Shown here: one piece after another, positions 56-59,278 of the stretch | Numbering within the stretch: position 1 is the stretch's first letter | Layout of the letters: the number at the start of each line of letters is the position of its first letter | Virus record (IMG/VR): IMGVR_UViG_3300036832_000301 | Location: 1-59,931 of that record | Reading direction: 5' to 3' (one strand) | DNA length: 59,931 nucleotides | From: a virus | Program-made: the position numbers and the translations under genes | The notes under the pieces: model-generated | Told to the model about the DNA's origin: nothing | The model's input: the letters and a program-made list of their open reading frames with translations, nothing else | Databases searched by the model: none

Positions 56-1360
56 ATGTCCCGAGCATGGCCTGCCGACACGGCTGAGCGCAGGTCTGTT
101 GACGCGCTTGTGCCCTACGCCAACAACGCCAGAACACACACGCCAGAGCAGGTCGAGCAGATCGCCCGGTCAATCGAGGCGTGGGGCTGGAAAAACGCCG
201 TTCTCATAGACGAGGCGGGTGGGATCATCGCCGGTCACGGGCGCGTCCTGGCCGCCAAGCACCTGGGTTATACCGACGTCCCGGTGGTGGTCGCGACGGG
301 TTGGACCGAAGCCGAGAAACGCGCCTACGTCATCGCCGACAACCAGCTTGCCCTGGCCGCCGGGTGGGACGAGGACATGCTGCGGGCCGAGCTTGGCGCG
401 CTGGCGGCGGACGGCTTCGCGCTCGACCTGATCGGCTTCGGCGACGATGAGCTCGGGCGGCTGCTGGCCCCGCCGGAAACCGAGGGGCTCACCGACCCCG
501 ACGACGCGCCGGATGTGCCGGATGTGCCGGTCACCGTCGAAGGCGACCTCTGGCTGCTCGGGCGGCACCGGCTGGTCTGCGGCGATTGCACGGTGGCCGA
601 TACGACGCTGCGGGCGATGGGCGATGTCCGCCCGCACCTGATGGTCACCGACCCGCCCTACGGCGTCGAGTACGACGCCGACTGGCGCAACCACGCGCGG
701 CGACCGGACGGGTCGCTGATCGGCGGGCGGGCTATCGGCAAGGTGACCAACGACGAGCGGGCCGACTGGCGCGACGCCTGGGCGCTGTTCCTGGGCGACG
801 TCGCCTATGTCTGGGGTGCGGGGCTGTGCTCGAAGCAGTCGGTCGAGTCGCTTGAGGCGGCGGGCTTCGTCATCCGCGCCCAGCTTATCTGGGCCAAGAA
901 CCAGTTCGTCGTCGGACGCGGCCACTACCACTTCCAGCACGAGCCCTGCTGGTACGCGGTGCGCAAGACCGGCAAGAGCCATTGGCACGGCGATCACACC
1001 CAGTCGTCGCTCTGGCAGATCGACAAGCCGCGCCGCTCGGAGACCGGGCACAGCACGCAGAAGCCGGTCGAGTGCATGAAGCGGCCCATCGAGAACAATA
1101 GCAGCCCCGGTCAGGCGGTCTATGAGCCGTTCAGCGGCTCGGGCACCACGATCATCGCCGCCGAGATCACCGCCCGGTCCTGCCACGCCATCGAGATCGA
1201 CCCCGGCTACTGCGACGTCGCGGTGCAGCGCTGGGAAGCCTTCACCGGCCAGACCGCCACGCTGGACGGCGATGGCCGAACCTTCGCCGAGATCGCCGCC
1301 GAGAGGGTGCCAGATGCAACCCGGACCACCGCCGAAGCCCACGAAGCTCAAACGGCTTGA
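56..1360 (+). CDS. ParB-like domain fused to DNA methyltransferase
   Basis: 434 aa. The N-terminal half looks like a ParB/sulfiredoxin-type domain, with a YANNARTH motif near residues 21-28 and a GHGRVLAAK motif. The C-terminal half is an amino-methyltransferase: the catalytic DPPY is near residue 199 and the SAM-binding FSGSGTT near residue 359, the beta-class motif order. It probably methylates adenine or N4-cytosine in phage DNA, perhaps for protection against restriction. A GGAGG ribosome site lies about 12 nt before the ATG. The 3' end overlaps the small terminase gene, as in many packaging modules. Target sequence unknown. Confidence 0.9.
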   Translation: MSRAWPADTAERRSVDALVPYANNARTHTPEQVEQIARSIEAWGWKNAVLIDEAGGIIAGHGRVLAAKHLGYTDVPVVVATGWTEAEKRAYVIADNQLALAAGWDEDMLRAELGALAADGFALDLIGFGDDELGRLLAPPETEGLTDPDDAPDVPDVPVTVEGDLWLLGRHRLVCGDCTVADTTLRAMGDVRPHLMVTDPPYGVEYDADWRNHARRPDGSLIGGRAIGKVTNDERADWRDAWALFLGDVAYVWGAGLCSKQSVESLEAAGFVIRAQLIWAKNQFVVGRGHYHFQHEPCWYAVRKTGKSHWHGDHTQSSLWQIDKPRRSETGHSTQKPVECMKRPIENNSSPGQAVYEPFSGSGTTIIAAEITARSCHAIEIDPGYCDVAVQRWEAFTGQTATLDGDGRTFAEIAAERVPDATRTTAEAHEAQTA

Positions 1361-1829
1361 AGGCAACCCCGGCAAGCAACGTCTGAACGATAGGGAGCCG
1401 GAACCGACCGGGCCATGCAAGCGACCCGCCTTCCTGACGGGCGCTGCGGCTGAGGAGTGGGAACGGGCGTGCGCAGCGATGCCGCCGGGCTTCTACACCG
1501 CCGCCGACATCCCGGTGCTGACCGTCTATTCGCTTTCATGGGTTCAATACCGAAACGCCCTGGCGCAGGTCGGGCGCGAGGGCATGACGCAGAAGACCGT
1601 GCTCGGCCACGACAAGACCCACCCGGCAGTGAACATCTCGCTCAAGCACGCCGAGGTGATCCTGCGCACGGCGGACCGGCTGGGCATGAGCCCGGCGGCC
1701 AGGGCGCGGCTGGAAATGCCGGAAGAAAACGCCGAGCAGGGCAAGTTCGCCGGTCTGTTCGGCGGAAAGCCGCTGCGGCTCGCAATCTCCAACGAGCCGA
1801 GCTCGTCTGCGCGTTCGTCGAAAGGCTGA
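1314..1829 (+). CDS. terS: terminase small subunit (P27 family)
   Basis: 171 aa. It starts at an internal ATG inside the methylase gene and opens with a proline/lysine-rich stretch (PPPKPTKLK..GNPGK) typical of P27-type small terminases, which recognise the packaging site and recruit the large subunit. The C-terminus contains FAGLFGGK, close to the usual family end. The large terminase frame overlaps its last part in the -1 frame. Confidence is good from the N-terminal signature, length and position. Confidence 0.85.
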   Translation: MQPGPPPKPTKLKRLEGNPGKQRLNDREPEPTGPCKRPAFLTGAAAEEWERACAAMPPGFYTAADIPVLTVYSLSWVQYRNALAQVGREGMTQKTVLGHDKTHPAVNISLKHAEVILRTADRLGMSPAARARLEMPEENAEQGKFAGLFGGKPLRLAISNEPSSSARSSKG

Positions 1830-3322
1830 CCGTCCCGTCAGGCGAAGGTGCGGGCGGCCCGATCAAGCTGCGGCCCTGGCAGCGCCGGTTCATCATCGAC
1901 GTCTATGCGCCGCAGTACGAGGACGGGCTGCGGCTGGTGCGCCGGGCGATCTTTTCGCTGGGGAGGAAGAATGGGAAGACCCTTCTGGCGGCGGCGCTGG
2001 TGCTGGTTCACCTCGTCGGCCCCGAAGCCGAGCGGAACGGTGAGATTTATTCCGCCGCCAACGACCGGGAGCAGGCTGGGCAGGTCTTCAAGATGGCCCG
2101 GCAGATGGTCGAGGCCGAGCCCGAGCTCGTGGCGCGGCTGCGGGTGGTCCCGTCGACCAAGACCATCGCCTGTTACGGCAACGGCAGTTTCTACCGGGCG
2201 CTGAGCGCCGAGAGCGGCACCAAGCACGGGCTCAACCCGACCTTCGTGATCTTCGACGAGCTCGCGCAGGCCAGGAACCGCGACCTGTACGATGTGCTCG
2301 ACACGTCGATGTCGGCGCGGGCCGAGCCGCTGTTCCTGGCGATCAGCACGCAGAGCAACGACCCGGAGCACATCCTGTCGAAGCTGATCGACGACGGGCT
2401 GAGCGGCGCGGACCCGACCACGGTCTGCCACTTGTACGCCGCGCCGGAAGACGCCGAGCTCGACGACGAGTCGGCGTGGTATGCGGCCAACCCGGCGCTC
2501 GGCGACTTCCGTTCGCTGGATGAGCTCGCGACGGCGATGGCGAAGGCGAAGCGGCTTCCGGCCGAGGAGCCGAAAGTCAGGAACCTATATCTCAACCAGC
2601 GGGTCGATCCGACATCGACGCTGATCAGCCGCACCGACTGGCTTGCCTGCAAGGGCGAGGCGAAATGGGAGCCGGGCGAGAAGGTCTATCTGGCGCTCGA
2701 CCTGTCGGCGAAGACCGACCTGACCGCATTGGTTGGGGTGAGTGTCGAGGGTGGCAGCCGGGTCGCGGCGTGGTTCTGGAAACCCGCCGACTATCTGGCC
2801 GACCATGAGCGCCGCGACCGGGTGCCTTACAGCCTGTGGGAGAAACAGGGGCACCTGATCGCCATCCCTGGCCGGTCGATCCATCCGCGAGTGATCGCGC
2901 AGAAGATCGCCGAGCTCGTCAACGAGTACGACGTCGTCGGGCTGGCTTACGACCGGTGGGGTATTCAGAACCTGTTACGCGAGTTCGACGGGGTCGACCT
3001 GCAAGCCCACGACGCCCGCGAGGAGGGCGACGGGCTGCGGCTGGTCTCCTGGGGCCAGGGCTTCAAGGATATGTCCCCGGCGGTCGACGCGCTGGAAACG
3101 GCGGTGCTGCACGAGACGCTGATCCACAACGGCAATCCGGTGCTGACGTGGAACATGGGCAACGCGGTGGTGGTCACCGACCCGGCGGGCGGGCGCAAGC
3201 TGGATAAGACCAAGGTTCGGTTCCGGATCGACGGCGCGGTCGCCCTGGCGATGGCGCTCGGACTCAAGGATCGCGAGCGCGGTCCGGAGGGCGAGAAAGA
3301 ATACCGGATGCTGTTCCTGTGA
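1538..3322 (+). CDS. terL: terminase large subunit
   Basis: DNA-packaging ATPase and nuclease. Walker A GRKNGKT is at about residues 142-148 of the frame as given, Walker B FVIFDE near 236-241, and a nuclease-type acidic motif LALDLSAKTD near 387. The start is uncertain. Family homology appears to begin only around nt 1790 (RAELVCAFVERL), yet the frame holds no ATG, GTG or TTG between 1541 and that point. The only upstream ATG is 1538, deep inside terS, and it gives a low-quality Arg/Gly/Pro-rich N-terminus. A CTG at 1826 overlaps the terS stop. Frameshifting from terS, a rare start codon or a sequence error are all possible. Confidence 0.9.
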   Translation: MGSIPKRPGAGRARGHDAEDRARPRQDPPGSEHLAQARRGDPAHGGPAGHEPGGQGAAGNAGRKRRAGQVRRSVRRKAAAARNLQRAELVCAFVERLTVPSGEGAGGPIKLRPWQRRFIIDVYAPQYEDGLRLVRRAIFSLGRKNGKTLLAAALVLVHLVGPEAERNGEIYSAANDREQAGQVFKMARQMVEAEPELVARLRVVPSTKTIACYGNGSFYRALSAESGTKHGLNPTFVIFDELAQARNRDLYDVLDTSMSARAEPLFLAISTQSNDPEHILSKLIDDGLSGADPTTVCHLYAAPEDAELDDESAWYAANPALGDFRSLDELATAMAKAKRLPAEEPKVRNLYLNQRVDPTSTLISRTDWLACKGEAKWEPGEKVYLALDLSAKTDLTALVGVSVEGGSRVAAWFWKPADYLADHERRDRVPYSLWEKQGHLIAIPGRSIHPRVIAQKIAELVNEYDVVGLAYDRWGIQNLLREFDGVDLQAHDAREEGDGLRLVSWGQGFKDMSPAVDALETAVLHETLIHNGNPVLTWNMGNAVVVTDPAGGRKLDKTKVRFRIDGAVALAMALGLKDRERGPEGEKEYRMLFL

Positions 3323-3335
3323 AGGAGCTTTCCCG

Positions 3336-3554
3336 ATGCCCGACAGGAAGCCAGCCGACGAGAGTTGCGCGGTGTGCCGTTACTACCTCGCGTATGACGC
3401 GGACAGCGGCGCATGTCGGCGCTACCCGCCGCAAGCCTCATCGGGTCACTACGCGCCGAGAGACCCGCACCCCGGCGAGGCGGTGGCGCTCATCCGCTAT
3501 CCGGTTGTCTACGCGGCAGAGTGGTGCGGCGAGTTCGTCGCCGCCGCCTTGTAG
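3336..3554 (+). CDS. small cysteine-rich protein
   Basis: 72 aa, begun 13 nt after terL with an AAGGAGC ribosome site. It has Cys in a CAVC pair near residue 11, a third in ACRRYPP and a fourth in AEWCGEF. Four spaced cysteines suggest a small metal-binding fold. No family name is recognised with confidence. Its place between terminase and the beta-helix gene suggests a structural or packaging accessory role (inference). Confidence 0.75.
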   Translation: MPDRKPADESCAVCRYYLAYDADSGACRRYPPQASSGHYAPRDPHPGEAVALIRYPVVYAAEWCGEFVAAAL

Positions 3555-17117: not shown

Positions 17118-17583
17118 ACCCCCACCCGGCCCGCTGCCGATCATGGTGCGGCGGGTGGCTATCGCTCAGGCCGCGCTCAAGAAGTTCCACGGTGTCGCGT
17201 TCAAGTGGGGCGATGCCGACTGCGCCAAGCTGGCGAGCTTCGTGGTCAAGGAAGCCGGTCACAAAGTCAGCCTCGCCCGGTTCGGCAACTACGCCAGCGA
17301 GCGCACCGCCCGCCGCGCCCTAGAGGCTCAGGGGTTCGGTTCGATGGTCGAGGCGGTCGATGGCTTCGACGTGCTCAAGCGGATCGCCCCGCTCGCGGCG
17401 CTGCCCGGCGACCTGATCGCTTTCCCTGGTGCTGAAGGCGGCTGGGATGGGATCACCGTCGCGCTCGGCAATGGCCGGGTGCTCGGCTTCACCGAGCTCG
17501 CCGACCGGGGCGCGTGCTCGATCATTCAAGCCAGGGTGTCGCTCGCAATCGCGGCATGGAACGTGATCCCGTGGCGAAGGTAG
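17095..17583 (+). CDS. tail-tip cysteine peptidase-like protein (DUF6950 / NlpC-P60-like)
   Basis: 162 aa from ATG 17095 (AAGGA 9 nt upstream; an ATG at 17086 is too close). FKWGDADCAKLASFVVKEAG carries the putative catalytic Cys near residue 45, as in DUF6950/NlpC-P60-like tail proteins that trim peptidoglycan during entry; the GGWDGITVALGNGRVLGF segment could supply the partner residues, although no His aligns convincingly. It may be structural only. Confidence 0.75.
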   Translation: MFALPALEPPPGPLPIMVRRVAIAQAALKKFHGVAFKWGDADCAKLASFVVKEAGHKVSLARFGNYASERTARRALEAQGFGSMVEAVDGFDVLKRIAPLAALPGDLIAFPGAEGGWDGITVALGNGRVLGFTELADRGACSIIQARVSLAIAAWNVIPWRR

Positions 17584-20528
17584 CGGCGGCGGTCGGCTTC
17601 ATCGCGCTTGCCATCGTCGCCGCGCCGGTCGCCGGGGCATTGCTGGCGGGCGCGAGTCTGGGGACGGCGGCGATAGTCGGCGCGGGTGCGATCACCGGCT
17701 TCGGCGCGACGTTGGTCGGCGGGGCCGGGATCGCGGCGGCAATTTCAGCATGGGGGACCATCGCCGTTGGCGCGTCCATTGCCCTGTCGCCCTCGGCCAA
17801 GAAGGTCGGCCAGGGCGCAGCCGGGACGCAGGTCAATTTCCAGGCCGATCCAAATTCGGGCATCCCGTTCTCGCTCGGGCGCACCGGCACGGCGGGCAAG
17901 ATCATCCACGCCAACACGACCGGCCAAGCCGACAAGAACAGCCACCTTTATTATCTGATCGCGCTCTCTGGCGGGGTGATCTCTGGCGTCGAAAGCTTGT
18001 CCTGCAGCGGGCAGCTTTGCACGATGGACGGCGACGGCAACGCCAGCGGCGGCAACATCACCGGACCGTCCCCTTATGGCGGGGCGATGGACATCCGCTG
18101 GACCTACGGCTTCAAGCCCGAGCCCGCCTATATGCAGCCGCCGGGCTTCGATCCGGCGCTCGCGCCCGAGTGGACATCCGATCACCTGACCTCGGGCGTG
18201 GCCTGCGCGTGGTGGTCGCTGATCTATTCGTCGAGCGCCTTCCCGTCAGGCATCCCGTCGCCGATGTTCGTGGTGCGCGGCCCGCCGGTTTACGACCCGC
18301 GCCAGGACAGCACGGTCGGCGGCGGCTCGGGTCCGCAGCGGTGGGACGACGAGTCGACGTGGTCCTATGCCGGGTATGACAACCCGTTCCTGCAAGGGCT
18401 GACCTACTGCATCGGTCGGCGCGACAACGGCAAGCTCACCTTCGGGATCGGCGCACCGATCCAGGCGCTCGATCTCGAAGCCTTCGCCGAAGGTGCCGGG
18501 GTTTGCGAAAGCAACGCCTGGACGGTCGGCGGCGAGGTGCTGTCGACCGATACGAAGTGGGATGCGCTGGCCTCGATCCTGCAAGCGGGCGGCGGCGAAC
18601 CGATCCGGCTCGGCGGGATGATCTCTTGCGTCGTGCGCACCCCGCGCGTGGTGGTCGCCAGCCTGACCGGCCAGGACATCGTCGGCGACGCGGCGATCAC
18701 CGGCAGCAAGGGCCGCAAGGATCGCTTCAATCAGATCATCCCCAGCTATCGCAGCGAGGCGAACGGCTGGCAGATGGTGCCCGGCGGCGCGGTGACAGTC
18801 GACGAGTACGTCACGGCGGACGGCGAACTGCGCAGCAAGGGCGGCAGCTATGCGCTGGTGCAGGACGCCAAGCAGGCCGCCCAGCTTGCGGCGTATGACA
18901 TCGTCGACGCGCGTGAATTCGAGCCGGTGACCCTGCCGGTCGGCCCCAGGTTCGGCGCGCTGGTGCCTGGGGATGTGATCTCGATCACCGAACCTGAATT
19001 CGGCATGAGCGGCCAGGAGCTCATGATCGAGACCCGGCAGATCGACCCGACGACCGGGATGGTTACGCTCACCTGTCGATCCGAGACGCCGTCGAAACAC
19101 GCCTACGCGCTCGGGCAGACGCCGAACCCGCCGCCGATCCCCGGCTTGCAGCCGGTCGACCCGACCAAGGTGTTCGATCCGGACGCAGGCTCATGGACCG
19201 CCTGGGGCGGCATTCTCTCGGGCAGCGACGGGAGCCAAATCCCGGCCATCGTGGTCACCGGCCACGTCAACGATCCGAACGTCTCGAATGTGCTGGTCGA
19301 CATCCGGCTTGAGCTCGACGCCACGCCGACCTTCGGCGACTGGATGACCACCACGGCCCCGGCGAACGCCACGCGGATCGAGATCAGGGCGGTGATCCCC
19401 GGCGCGACCTACAACGTGCGGGTCCGCTACAAGACGGTGCGGCAAGTCGAGGGGATCACCGGGCTCGATCTCGGGCTGGTGACGGTGGGGACGCTGATCT
19501 CAGGCGGCGTCACCACCATCGGCGGGCAGACCCCCGAGGAACTGGTTCAGCAGCTTAACGACACCACCGCGCTCGGGCAGCAGACGTCGGATCAGGCGAA
19601 CCAGACCGCGCAAGACCTGCTGCCGGTGTCGGACAGCGCCAACTATTCGAAGACCCGGATCGACCTGATCGGCTCGCTCCTGCCGAACGGCTCGACGTTC
19701 CAGATGTCCGACACGACGTTGTTCGCCGACGCGTCGACGACCTGGGGCACCTACCGGACCAGCCTGCAAAGCCATGTCGACAACAACACCTCGGCGATCA
19801 CCACCGAGCAGACGGCGCGGGTCAACGGCGACCAAGCCAACGCGACGTCGATCACCAACCTGTCGACAACCGTCAACGGCAACACCGCCTCGATTACAAC
19901 CCTGCAAACATCGGTGAACGGGCTCAACGCGCAGTACGTGCTTTCGGTGAACGCGGGCGGTCAGGTCGCCGGAATGAAGCTGGCGGCGGGCGGCTCTGGC
20001 GGATCGAGCATGGCGTTTATCGCCAGTCAAATCGGGTTCTCGGACGGCACCTCGAATGTGTTCCCGCTGGCGGTGGTCGGCGGCAAGGTGATCGCCACCA
20101 ACTTCCAGGCCGACGACATCAAAGCCAACACGATCACCGCGAACATGATCATCGGCGGGGCGGTGACGGCGACTGGGATTACCAGCGCAGGGGCGCAATC
20201 CAATCCGGTCGGGTCGGAAGTCACCGACATGACGTTCAATTACAACAGCTATGGCGGCGACCACCTGTTCGACATCTACGGCGAGCTCGGCACGTCGACG
20301 AGCTCCGCAGCCGGGACGGTTTTCACCCTCTATTGCGACGGCGGGGCGATCACCTCGGGGGCTGTCTATTGCCCTCCCAACTGGGGCGCGAACGGCGTCA
20401 GCTTCCCATTCGCCCACCGGCCCGGCGCGGGCGGGCACTCCTATCGGCTCGCCCATACCGGCACCACCGGCAGCGGCCCATCGCAGGTCAACCGCACGAC
20501 CGTCGTGCTGACCGAGCTCAAGAAATAA
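17556..20528 (+). CDS. tail tip / host-specificity protein (J-like)
   Basis: 990 aa from ATG 17556 (GTG 17571 is also possible). A hydrophobic N-terminal 80 residues (VGFIALAIVAAPVAGALLAG) precede NSGIPFSLGRTGTAGKIIH, and the central part is like lambda gpJ / GTA gp15 central hubs. Fibronectin-like and coiled segments follow (about 590-800), and a C-terminal beta domain. It determines host binding and forms the tail tip. The start overlaps the peptidase gene. Confidence 0.8.
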   Translation: MERDPVAKVAAAVGFIALAIVAAPVAGALLAGASLGTAAIVGAGAITGFGATLVGGAGIAAAISAWGTIAVGASIALSPSAKKVGQGAAGTQVNFQADPNSGIPFSLGRTGTAGKIIHANTTGQADKNSHLYYLIALSGGVISGVESLSCSGQLCTMDGDGNASGGNITGPSPYGGAMDIRWTYGFKPEPAYMQPPGFDPALAPEWTSDHLTSGVACAWWSLIYSSSAFPSGIPSPMFVVRGPPVYDPRQDSTVGGGSGPQRWDDESTWSYAGYDNPFLQGLTYCIGRRDNGKLTFGIGAPIQALDLEAFAEGAGVCESNAWTVGGEVLSTDTKWDALASILQAGGGEPIRLGGMISCVVRTPRVVVASLTGQDIVGDAAITGSKGRKDRFNQIIPSYRSEANGWQMVPGGAVTVDEYVTADGELRSKGGSYALVQDAKQAAQLAAYDIVDAREFEPVTLPVGPRFGALVPGDVISITEPEFGMSGQELMIETRQIDPTTGMVTLTCRSETPSKHAYALGQTPNPPPIPGLQPVDPTKVFDPDAGSWTAWGGILSGSDGSQIPAIVVTGHVNDPNVSNVLVDIRLELDATPTFGDWMTTTAPANATRIEIRAVIPGATYNVRVRYKTVRQVEGITGLDLGLVTVGTLISGGVTTIGGQTPEELVQQLNDTTALGQQTSDQANQTAQDLLPVSDSANYSKTRIDLIGSLLPNGSTFQMSDTTLFADASTTWGTYRTSLQSHVDNNTSAITTEQTARVNGDQANATSITNLSTTVNGNTASITTLQTSVNGLNAQYVLSVNAGGQVAGMKLAAGGSGGSSMAFIASQIGFSDGTSNVFPLAVVGGKVIATNFQADDIKANTITANMIIGGAVTATGITSAGAQSNPVGSEVTDMTFNYNSYGGDHLFDIYGELGTSTSSAAGTVFTLYCDGGAITSGAVYCPPNWGANGVSFPFAHRPGAGGHSYRLAHTGTTGSGPSQVNRTTVVLTELKK

Positions 20529-56429: not shown

Positions 56430-56978
56430 ATGGCCCGCCGCAAACACAAGCCAGCCGACCCGCAGGACATCGCCCGTCGACGCGCCGAGCGGGATGCCAA
56501 CGAGATCGAGATCAGACGCTTGCGCGATCACGGCGCGGTGGTCAGCCTGGATCGGGCGCGCAGGATCACCACGGCCTATCGCGCCAGCCCGTTCCGCAAG
56601 CTGCTCGACACCAAGACCATCACCACCACCCAGAGCGCCGCCGCCGAACGCCTCTGCCAGGACTGGGCCGAGTGGAAGGGTCTGGACGGCAAGCCACCGC
56701 CGACCGGCATCCCGAACCCGCATCCGTCGCAGAGCACCGCCTTGGTGACGGATCGGATGTTGCGCGGCGGTCAGCGCATCGCTCAGGCGCTCGGCGCGGT
56801 CGGTCCGGTCGACCGCGAGCTCTTAGGCGCAATGGCCGCCGCTGCGGTTGAGGAAGATTGCCCGATCCCCTGGCGCGACATCGTACGCCGGATCACGGGT
56901 GTCACGCAGACCGTCAGGCAGTCGCAAACCGTCGCGAATGCGCTCGCGAATTTGGTGGGCGCTTATCACTTGAGGTAG
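56430..56978 (+). CDS. DUF6456-like protein
   Basis: 182 aa. SPFRKLLDTKTITTTQSAAAERLCQDWAEW, then RGGQRIAQALGAVGPVDRELLGAMAAAAVEEDCPIPWRDIVRRITGVTQTVRQSQTVANALANLVGAYHL resembles the layout of the alphaproteobacterial DUF6456 C-terminal domain, often linked to HTH regulators. Highly basic N-terminus. Last plus-strand gene before the pentanucleotide array. Confidence 0.6.
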   Translation: MARRKHKPADPQDIARRRAERDANEIEIRRLRDHGAVVSLDRARRITTAYRASPFRKLLDTKTITTTQSAAAERLCQDWAEWKGLDGKPPPTGIPNPHPSQSTALVTDRMLRGGQRIAQALGAVGPVDRELLGAMAAAAVEEDCPIPWRDIVRRITGVTQTVRQSQTVANALANLVGAYHLR

Positions 56979-57040
56979 GCGACGGGCCGCCAGCGAAGCC
57001 CACTGACGGCCCCTTGGCGACCTCGGCGCTACTACCCTAG

Positions 57041-58118
57041 CCGAACCGGCCCAGCCTCACCCAACCACGACGAGCCACACCGTGCCCTGCCACGCCGAAC
57101 CCGGCCATGCCAGCCGCACCGCGCCGGGCCTAACCGTGCAACACCGCGCAACGCCTTGCCTGCCCAACCGAGCCTGACCGCGCCGGGCCATTCCAAGCCT
57201 TGCCTTGCCTGCCGCGCCGCGCCTGACCCGGAGCAACCCCGCCTGACCACGACGGGCCGCGCCACGCCAGCCAGACCTTGCCAAGCCGCACCCGGCTCGA
57301 CCTGACCTTGCCTCGCCTGCCTACCTCGCCAGGACACACCTAGCTCAGCCTCGCCAGCCCTGCCGCGCCCCACCTAACCTAGCCCTGCCAGCCAAGCCGT
57401 GCCACGCCATGACCTGCGTCGCCCTGCCTGCCATGCCGGGCCAAAACAGACCTGACCCCGCCTAGCTGAACCTCGCCATGCCTGCCACACCTTGCCATTC
57501 CAAACCGCGCCTGACCGCACCTTGCCGCGCCGCGCAATGCCTCGCCTGCCAAACCCCGCCTCGCCATGCCCAGCAGCACCGAGCCCCGCTGGGCCTAGCC
57601 TGCCGTGCCCTGCGTTGCCGTGCCTACCATGCCAGACCCCTGCCACGCCTGCCGCGCCGAGCCATGCCCAGCCCCACCGGACCGCGCGATGACACACCGG
57701 GCCTGCCATACCGCACCTTGCGACACCGAACCCCGACCCGCCTAAACAAGCCGTGCCTGCCGCGCCCTGCCCACGCTCGACCTTGCCACACCGCGCTCAG
57801 CCATGCCTGCCGCACCGGGCCGCGCCTCGCCAGACATCGCCATGCCGTGACCCGCCCTGCCAGCCATGCCCTGACCTGCCCCACGTCACCACGTCTGCCA
57901 TGCCGGGCCTGACTCTGCCTGACCCAGCCTCGCCCCACCATGCCTGCCGGGCCGGGCCAAGCCTTGCCTAGCCCTTCCGCGCCGAGCCATGCCAGCCAGA
58001 CCCTACCTGACCTCACATCGCCATGCCCTGCCACACCAAGCCCATCCCCGCCTCGCCTGCCTCACCTTGCTCTGCCTGACCCTGACACGCCTCGCCAAAC
58101 CCAATCTCGCCTCGGCTA
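57041..58118. repeat. degenerate pentanucleotide-periodic array (CCNNG-type)
   Basis: About 1.1 kb in which the dinucleotide CC recurs every 5 nt, most units fitting CCNNG (CCTTG, CCATG, CCGCG, CCACG, CCTCG), broken by 4-nt units CC(T/A)G. Such 4-nt slips occur at 57110, 57159, 57208, 57267, 57316, then for example 57545, 57599, 57648, 57702 and 57756, mostly 49 or 54 nt apart, giving a second-order period. The top strand is C-rich and G-poor. A 10-bp inverted repeat CCGAACCGGC (57041) / GCCGGTTCGG (58120) flanks it. Open frames inside it are by-products of the period; no gene is called. It separates convergent genes 56978 and 58116. Confidence 0.9.
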
Positions 58119-58640
58119 AGCCGGTTCGGGTTTAAGCTCGGTTTCGAGCCGCGCGAGTTCCAAGGCCGCGACGGTTTCGTCAATCGCGCCATTGACCCGT
58201 GCGAGCTCGATAAGGTCGCTATATCGCCGTCGCCAGGAATTGAGCTCGCCGAGCGCCCGGCTGAGCAGCCCATGCACGACCTGCGCGTCGCTCGCCGCCC
58301 ATTGCACCCCGGCGTAACCCTGCTCGCCGCCCACGGTGACGATGTTGACGAAGGCGCGCACCCCGTCCCTGATCTCGCCGTCCTTGGTGATGATCTCGAC
58401 TTCAAGCTGCTGCACCACCGCGCGCGCCTGCTCGACCCGATAGGCCGCGCCAGCTACCGCGTCATCCCATTCGAACAACGGATGCAGCGGTGAGCTCGCG
58501 GGCTTCGCCGCCTCGACGATTTCCGGCGGATGCAGCAGCCCGTTCCCGGCCAGGGCTTCGAGCGCTTCGCCGATGGTCTGCGGATCGGTCCCATAACGAT
58601 GGGCTCCGGGTCGCCAGAAATAGGTTGTGCGGCTGGTCAT
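58116..58640 (-). CDS. conserved phage protein paired with 58637
   Basis: 174 aa from ATG 58640. RTTYFWRPGAHRYGTDPQTIGEALEALAGNGLLHPPEIVEAAKPASSPLHPLFEWDDAVAGAAYRVEQARAVVQQL is a recurring phage pattern, generally found next to a protein of the kind encoded upstream here. C-terminal helical region to the end, which reaches the inverted repeat of the array. Function unknown. Confidence 0.8.
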   Translation of the reverse strand: MTSRTTYFWRPGAHRYGTDPQTIGEALEALAGNGLLHPPEIVEAAKPASSPLHPLFEWDDAVAGAAYRVEQARAVVQQLEVEIITKDGEIRDGVRAFVNIVTVGGEQGYAGVQWAASDAQVVHGLLSRALGELNSWRRRYSDLIELARVNGAIDETVAALELARLETELKPEPA

Positions 58641-59278
58641 CGGCTCGGCACCTTCTCGTTGGACTTGGCGACATGGAAGCGACCGAAAGGCCCGTTGCGC
58701 TGCGGACGCCAATCGCCGATCCCTACCGCGAAACCGGCCAGATCGAACAGGCTGATGACCTGCTCAGGCGAGATCGCCGAGGTGTTGACCTTGACCGTCA
58801 GGATCGCGCCCCAAGGGTTGAATTCAGGGCGATAGCGCAGATCGGCGACCCCCATTCCGACCCGCGCGATGTCTTCGCGCATCGACGGTGGCGGACCGCT
58901 GATCTCGACGAATTCGCCGACGATGTGGAACGCCTGCCGCGCCGCCACCTTGGTCATCCCGGCCACCGACGTCACCGCGTCGACCGCCGCGCTCTTGAAG
59001 CCCACCGCCGGGAAGCCGAACAGCGCCGCCTCGATATCCGCCTCGCTCGGCTTCTTGGGTTTCTCGGTGAGCCAGTAGAGCGCATCGCAGAAGTCGTCCC
59101 ACGGCACCTTGGCGTCGCGGCCTTTCGCGCCCTTGCGCTGCTGCTTGGCCGCCATCTGCTCCTTGGCCTTCTGCGACCACGCATGCACGATCAGCGGGCT
59201 GTCGCCGATGATCGGCACCTCGATGGTCTCCACCTGTAGGCGCGGAAGCTCTAAGACGTTGGTGGTGCTCGCAGCCAT
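58637..59278 (-). CDS. conserved phage protein
   Basis: 213 aa. VETIEVPIIGDSPLIVHAWSQKAKEQMAAKQQ, GFPAVGFKSAAVDAVTSVAGMTK, ISGPPPSMREDIARVGMGVADLRYRPEF and VGIGDWRPQRNGPFGRF are conserved phage-family motifs. The final Gly-rich loop is reminiscent of RAMP-type RNA-binding folds, but this is speculative. It probably forms a functional pair with the downstream gene. Confidence 0.8.
   Translation of the reverse strand: MAASTTNVLELPRLQVETIEVPIIGDSPLIVHAWSQKAKEQMAAKQQRKGAKGRDAKVPWDDFCDALYWLTEKPKKPSEADIEAALFGFPAVGFKSAAVDAVTSVAGMTKVAARQAFHIVGEFVEISGPPPSMREDIARVGMGVADLRYRPEFNPWGAILTVKVNTSAISPEQVISLFDLAGFAVGIGDWRPQRNGPFGRFHVAKSNEKVPSR

Follow-up and report, generated by a model that had tools for sequence, protein, structure and literature searches.

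The window analysed here is a whole stretch of 59,931 nucleotides, an IMG/VR virus record (IMGVR_UViG_3300036832_000301) with terminase, capsid and tape measure genes. It contains 1.1 kb of DNA in which CC recurs every five bases, and the question is what kind of element such a regular, yet non-repetitive, region represents. Our results indicated, with a probability of about 0.93, that the locus is a phage-borne VIPR (Viral Interference Programmable Repeat) system consisting of a vipr gene, a vap-like gene and a long guide-RNA array, all in the minus strand. The features recognized were:

57041 to 58129, minus strand: putative vrRNA (guide RNA) array of about 220 YNNGG units, terminal inverted repeats included (HMM, column counts, z 14.5)
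57110 to 58059, minus strand: tetramer slip units (CAGG or CTGG in RNA sense), putative cassette borders between which relatives gain or lose whole cassettes
57041 to 57056, no strand: arm of the terminal inverted repeat on the RNA 3' side of the array, with 88% complementarity to 58114-58129 over 16 nt
58114 to 58129, no strand: the other arm, on the RNA 5' side of the array, 16 nt, 88% complementarity, partly within the final codons of the accessory gene
58116 to 58640, minus strand: accessory (vap-like) gene, 174 aa, phrog_15946 (E 5e-19), start overlapping the vipr stop (ATGA)
58637 to 59278, minus strand: vipr, 213 aa, RAMP (Cas7/Csm3-like) protein, phrog_4652 (E 6e-27), related to PDB 36pp, model pLDDT 94.1
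56430 to 56978, plus strand: convergent ORF, 182 aa, at the opposite end of the array and outside the proposed system, no significant family match

Organization of the five-base array

Between 57041 and 58129 there were 143 pairs of CC at lag 5, against a mean of 52.0 (s.d. 6.3, maximum 73) in 500 dinucleotide shuffles (z 14.5), and the highest count in any array-free 1089-nt window was 24. Lags 49 and 54 were also in excess over dinucleotide shuffles (121 pairs, z 12.1, and 135 pairs, z 14.2, respectively), and lag 50 was at chance level (z 0.4). An earlier, sequence-only reading of this DNA had described the five-base step of CC and proposed autocorrelation at these lags as the check; all three signals were strong. 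Its second-order period of about 50 nt agrees with the 49 and 54 peaks, without there being a strict 50-nt period. A hidden Markov model (HMM) built as a five-base cycle plus a four-base slip called a single array at 57036-58114 (score 480; 220 units, including 23 tetramers) and none in shuffled sequence. The units read CCNNR in the plus strand and YNNGG in the minus strand, with random NN: in RNA sense, the first column was Y in 191 of 195 units, the next two were free, and the last two were G in 175 and 182 of 195.

Neighbouring units had the same middle dinucleotide in 7% of cases, and chance alone predicts about 1/16; the array is thus no tandem repeat altered by mutation, and Tandem Repeats Finder reported nothing at this place. 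This is what the sequence-only reading had held, together with the idea, which also stands, that selection keeps the spacing while two positions are free. The period of five and the ORFs of 111-144 aa readable through portions of the array might suggest a coding sequence with repeats or the remains of a pentanucleotide microsatellite. However, neighbouring dinucleotides are alike only at chance (0.07) while CC/GG is kept, unlike the true microsatellites that match the same pattern in bacterial genomes, and the slips would shift the frame of a coding repeat again and again; we consider this origin very improbable. Rfam gave no match to the window array.

The array lies between convergent genes, as had been noted, but it starts only 1 nt past the stop codon of the two-gene minus-strand operon. 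The inverted repeat said to flank it as an exact 10-nt pair is real, although longer and inexact (16 nt, see above). Scans for promoter and terminator consensus sequences called none. Note that a GC-rich hairpin-like stretch is visible by eye at 56984-57012, between the RNA 3' end of the array and the convergent ORF; the terminator scan did not call it.

Genes next to the array

The product of vipr belongs to phrog_4652, a family without annotated function that also matches the array-side genes of phages DRBy19, Cy-LDV1, LittleE, ODay and UmaThurman. An alignment of 86 members served for the profile and the structural model. The family profile matched PDB 36pp, the "SUSP1 Vipr protein", with E 5.5e-38, and the window protein alone did so with E 5e-5. 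The AlphaFold2 model of the window protein (mean pLDDT 94.1) had its best solved-structure matches in Csm3 and other Cas7-type backbone subunits (Foldseek E 1e-5), and this predicted model superposed on Csm3 over about 150 residues (VIA Z ~11, rmsd ~3.5). The window Vipr is thus predicted to have the Csm3/Cas7 RAMP fold; Pfam and NCBIfam gave it no consistent match.

Relatives of the accessory gene were present at 47 of 112 vipr loci. In the model of its product, a long helix at the C-terminus accompanies a part that weakly resembles a winged helix, and a fold search with this model returned nothing above Z ~5. The predicted fold is compatible with the DNA-binding vap proteins described in PMC13142463, without being proof of such a function.

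Distribution in phages and strand of the transcript

The pattern (CCNNG)7CC occurred in at least 120 IMG/VR stretches, and most of those listed were degenerate arrays like that of the window; most matches of a longer version of the pattern in bacterial genomes were ordinary repeats. Alignments by blastn with array sequence led to annotated phages: mycobacteriophages (Cheoctovirus), Gordonia phages, cyanophage Cy-LDV1, Felixounavirus ECML-1 and Omegavirus LittleE. A third array used as blastn query had no match, and a search of plasmids gave four short matches. In the annotated phages, an uncharacterised gene of about 200 aa adjoins the array or sits one gene off. Short "hypothetical protein" calls overlie the arrays in database records of mycobacteriophages and Gordonia phages (DRBy19 gp51, L124 5981-6236; UmaThurman gp40, L125 4958-5281; also L247, L248, L250 and L252); these calls are probably misannotated guide arrays.

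The family phrog_4652 was found in 20 of 20 array contigs searched whole and, at 71 of 85 array loci, within the stretch fetched. Among 40 control phage contigs, made up of terminase relatives of the window phage and of phages met in guide searches, only two had it, both with YNNGG arrays beside the gene. There were also 11 array contigs, many of them fragments, in which phrog_4652 was undetected even when they were searched whole; these may have a diverged Vipr or be stray arrays. The distance between gene and array was mostly 0-80 bp or about 450-550 bp.

In 84 of 86 array-gene pairs, CC and the RAMP gene were on different strands, and the transcript is therefore likely the operon-sense (YNNGG)n rather than a C-rich RNA. 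This bears on the explanation favoured by the sequence-only reading, a giant rut-type zone where Rho would terminate a plus-strand transcript. The composition of the plus strand (526 C and 250 G in 1089 nt) and the convergent flanking genes would suit such a zone. The C-rich RNA it presupposes is nevertheless the antisense of the G-rich operon-sense strand, rut sites need neither strict 5-nt spacing nor CAGG slips, the element follows the RAMP gene, strand included, through unrelated phages, and the exchange of cassettes (see below) would be left unexplained. We give Rho termination hardly any weight. A packaging or partition element, also proposed, found no support in our results; a structured RNA had been listed as well, and an RNA element is the option that agrees with them.

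Tetramer slips and cassettes

The slips were found at plus-strand positions 57110, 57159, 57208, 57267, 57316, 57354, 57388, 57427, 57481, 57545, 57599, 57648, 57702, 57756, 57806, 57860, 57943, 57992 and 58056, with a few atypical ones; the first five were placed correctly from the outset. They are mostly CAGG or CTGG in the window and split the array into about 20 cassettes. Spacings were 49 (six times), 54 (five times), 34, 39, 59 and 64, along with a few others; almost all fit 5k+4 and so correspond to k pentamers plus one tetramer instead of a strict 50-nt period. The commonest cassettes have 9, 10 or 12 units and a few have 6-7; imperfect units break some of them. Family-wide, the slip tetramer was CAGG at 230 of 335 sites and the next first N was purine-rich.

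Comparison of close relatives showed that whole slip-to-slip stretches are absent or swapped: L263 is without some cassettes of its close relative L262, and mycobacteriophage arrays have some cassettes in common and others different. For this reason the slips seem to border modules and the 49/54-nt order seems to reflect guide length, which is our own inference. It is possible, though we put it forward tentatively and would not bet on it, that the slip-delimited array is a heritable, editable record, that is, a VIPR variant storing about 20 directly abutting guide cassettes, which could be gained, lost or exchanged as modules at their tetramer borders; phages would then have a memory of many targets with no need of Cas1-like machinery.

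Other arrays are organized differently. In L503 (3534 bases), from a terminase relative of the window phage, the VIPR locus at 346-3376 has a constant element, CAGGGATACTTTGTGGATTTCCGAATGCGG, between guides, unlike the tail-less window array. In the 1.6-kb array of L067 (1959-3539), from a viral contig of 158,651 bases, a constant stretch of some 35 nt (RNA sense, ACGGGAGCAGCAGCATCCGGCGTAAAAGGGATGGA) breaks the run of units at about five places and may be a tail or a processing element. The array of L009 (6298-7012) has 143 units with zero slips and no visible guide borders. Arrays of at least 30 units without slips numbered 33.

Possible guide information in the free positions

Statistics of the NN dinucleotides were obtained from about 6,000 units of 113 loci. 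The N1N2 log-odds tracked those of contiguous dinucleotides in genomic DNA (r 0.85, z 9.1; chi-squared 111 versus a null mean of 8), and the step from N2 to the next N1 tracked genomic lag 2 (r 0.55, z 3.2; r 0.63 under another expectation), not lags 1, 3 or 4. N1-N1 and N2-N2 comparisons had no lag-3 signal, contrary to a naive one-base skip, which could be explained by targets kept in one codon phase. The statistics are consistent with copying from natural DNA, although a shared mutational bias could add to the N1N2 signal, and they moderately favour a one-base skip, independently of target searches.

Searches for targets were of limited scope. When 481 guides were compared with 3.1 Mb of local DNA at skips of 0-3, no excess over reversed guides was found; an apparent excess at skip 1 in a preceding comparison arose from microsatellites that had been included among the arrays. 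For guides g5, g23 and g14 of the window there were only chance-level extensions in IMG/VR (best, 19 of 20 bases, g5 in L346), and one mycobacteriophage guide had no exact match there. In 299 Mycobacteriales genomes, with up to two mismatches, the latter had eight matches versus one for the reversed pattern, an excess that may be explained by coding-like composition; its best match had no phage context among the ORFs within 3 kb. A second mycobacteriophage guide matched mostly within one host gene, which we take to resemble those of PafC-type regulators. Thus, no natural target was found for the window guides or the two mycobacteriophage guides in IMG/VR and these 299 genomes, but with a few exact single-pattern scans the missing targets say little.

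The array could be bound by Vipr and yet guide nothing, acting as a scaffold, a sponge, a storage RNA or a DNA site while its NN drift freely. The lack of a natural target for the window guides would agree with this, as would the borderless array of L009 and the 33 slip-free arrays mentioned above. Drift alone, however, fails to predict the natural-DNA dinucleotide signature (z 9.1) unless mutation bias does, and guide function has been shown for SUSP1 and P. fulva, according to PMC13142463. We regard a non-guiding array as improbable, if less so than the microsatellite or the Rho zone.

Comparison with VIPR and CRISPR-Cas

VIPR was described in phage SUSP1 and a Pseudomonas fulva prophage (PMC13142463, bioRxiv 2026.04.26.720920), and the statement that no named element has this design was fair for descriptions before April 2026. 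According to the preprint, a VIPR system combines a phage-encoded ancestral RAMP protein, an accessory gene (vap) and vrRNAs in which YNNGG is repeated 9-16 times. The guide information resides in the free positions: each NN dinucleotide pairs with double-stranded DNA, one target base being skipped per repeat, and the complex represses transcription, apparently in the service of phage-phage conflict. Seven types are distinguished there, with varied arrays including "staggered" ones (PMC13142463).

The window shares with VIPR, as there described, the Vipr protein, the YNNGG repeat, the guide length and the phage setting. Like SUSP1, it has a small phage RAMP protein of the same family, an adjoining accessory gene and an array beside these genes; its repeat is that of the published vrRNAs (YNNGG, fixed GGY, hypervariable NN), and its cassettes, commonly of 9-12 units, fit the 9-16 repeats per guide. 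The phrog_15946 gene coupled to vipr is a candidate for one of the vap genes (vap1-6). Homology of Vipr, the accessory gene and the YNNGG array together make the locus match VIPR. The arrangement of guides is different. In SUSP1 the four vrRNAs are separate, measure about 100 nt and have an invariant structured 3' tail, the feature of type II (SUSP1-like) systems, whereas the window has about 20 cassettes that abut directly through tetramers, and no recurring 3' tail was seen at its cassette-to-cassette junctions. It may correspond to the "staggered arrays" of the preprint (PMC13142463). Read as VIPR, the window adds a locus to this group, one in which the guides far outnumber those of SUSP1.

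The predicted RAMP fold and a glycine-rich loop relate the window Vipr to the class 1 CRISPR-Cas backbone proteins Csm3 and Cas7. The window differs from CRISPR in having no identical repeats with spacers, a periodicity of 5 instead of 6 nt and interrupted guide bases. A CRISPR array was rejected, since no identical tandem or interspersed repeat is present in the array and the flanking genes checked had no cas family match, the RAMP relative being alone nearby.

Proposed function

By analogy with the published systems, we infer expression, processing, targets and repression in the window phage as follows. Transcription of the array would run in the direction of the operon, and the RNA would be resolved into guides that each comprise about 9-12 YNNGG units, with the tetramer slips as the putative cassette borders. 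Vipr monomers would coat the RNA, one per unit, gripping GGY, and the NN dinucleotides would base-pair with double-stranded DNA in the pattern NNxNNx, in which one target base per unit is skipped. Target binding would lead to repression, presumably in competing phages or prophages.

With the VIPR reading, the five-base pattern becomes a readable guide bank, and the NN statistics back this without target matches. VIPR is months old and mainly two clades have been characterised; the window and about 100 further loci, some of them from phages able to grow on M. smegmatis, provide long-array systems that are tractable. If turnover involves entire cassettes, what phages have is a CRISPR-like store for many targets, and one open to study.

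Two other features of the window were observed. A plus-strand gene at 56-1360, beside the terminase gene, has both a ParB-like nuclease part and a DNA methyltransferase part. At 19106-19186 in the minus strand there is a single tRNA-Cys gene with anticodon GCA, antisense to a long plus-strand ORF (17514-20528).
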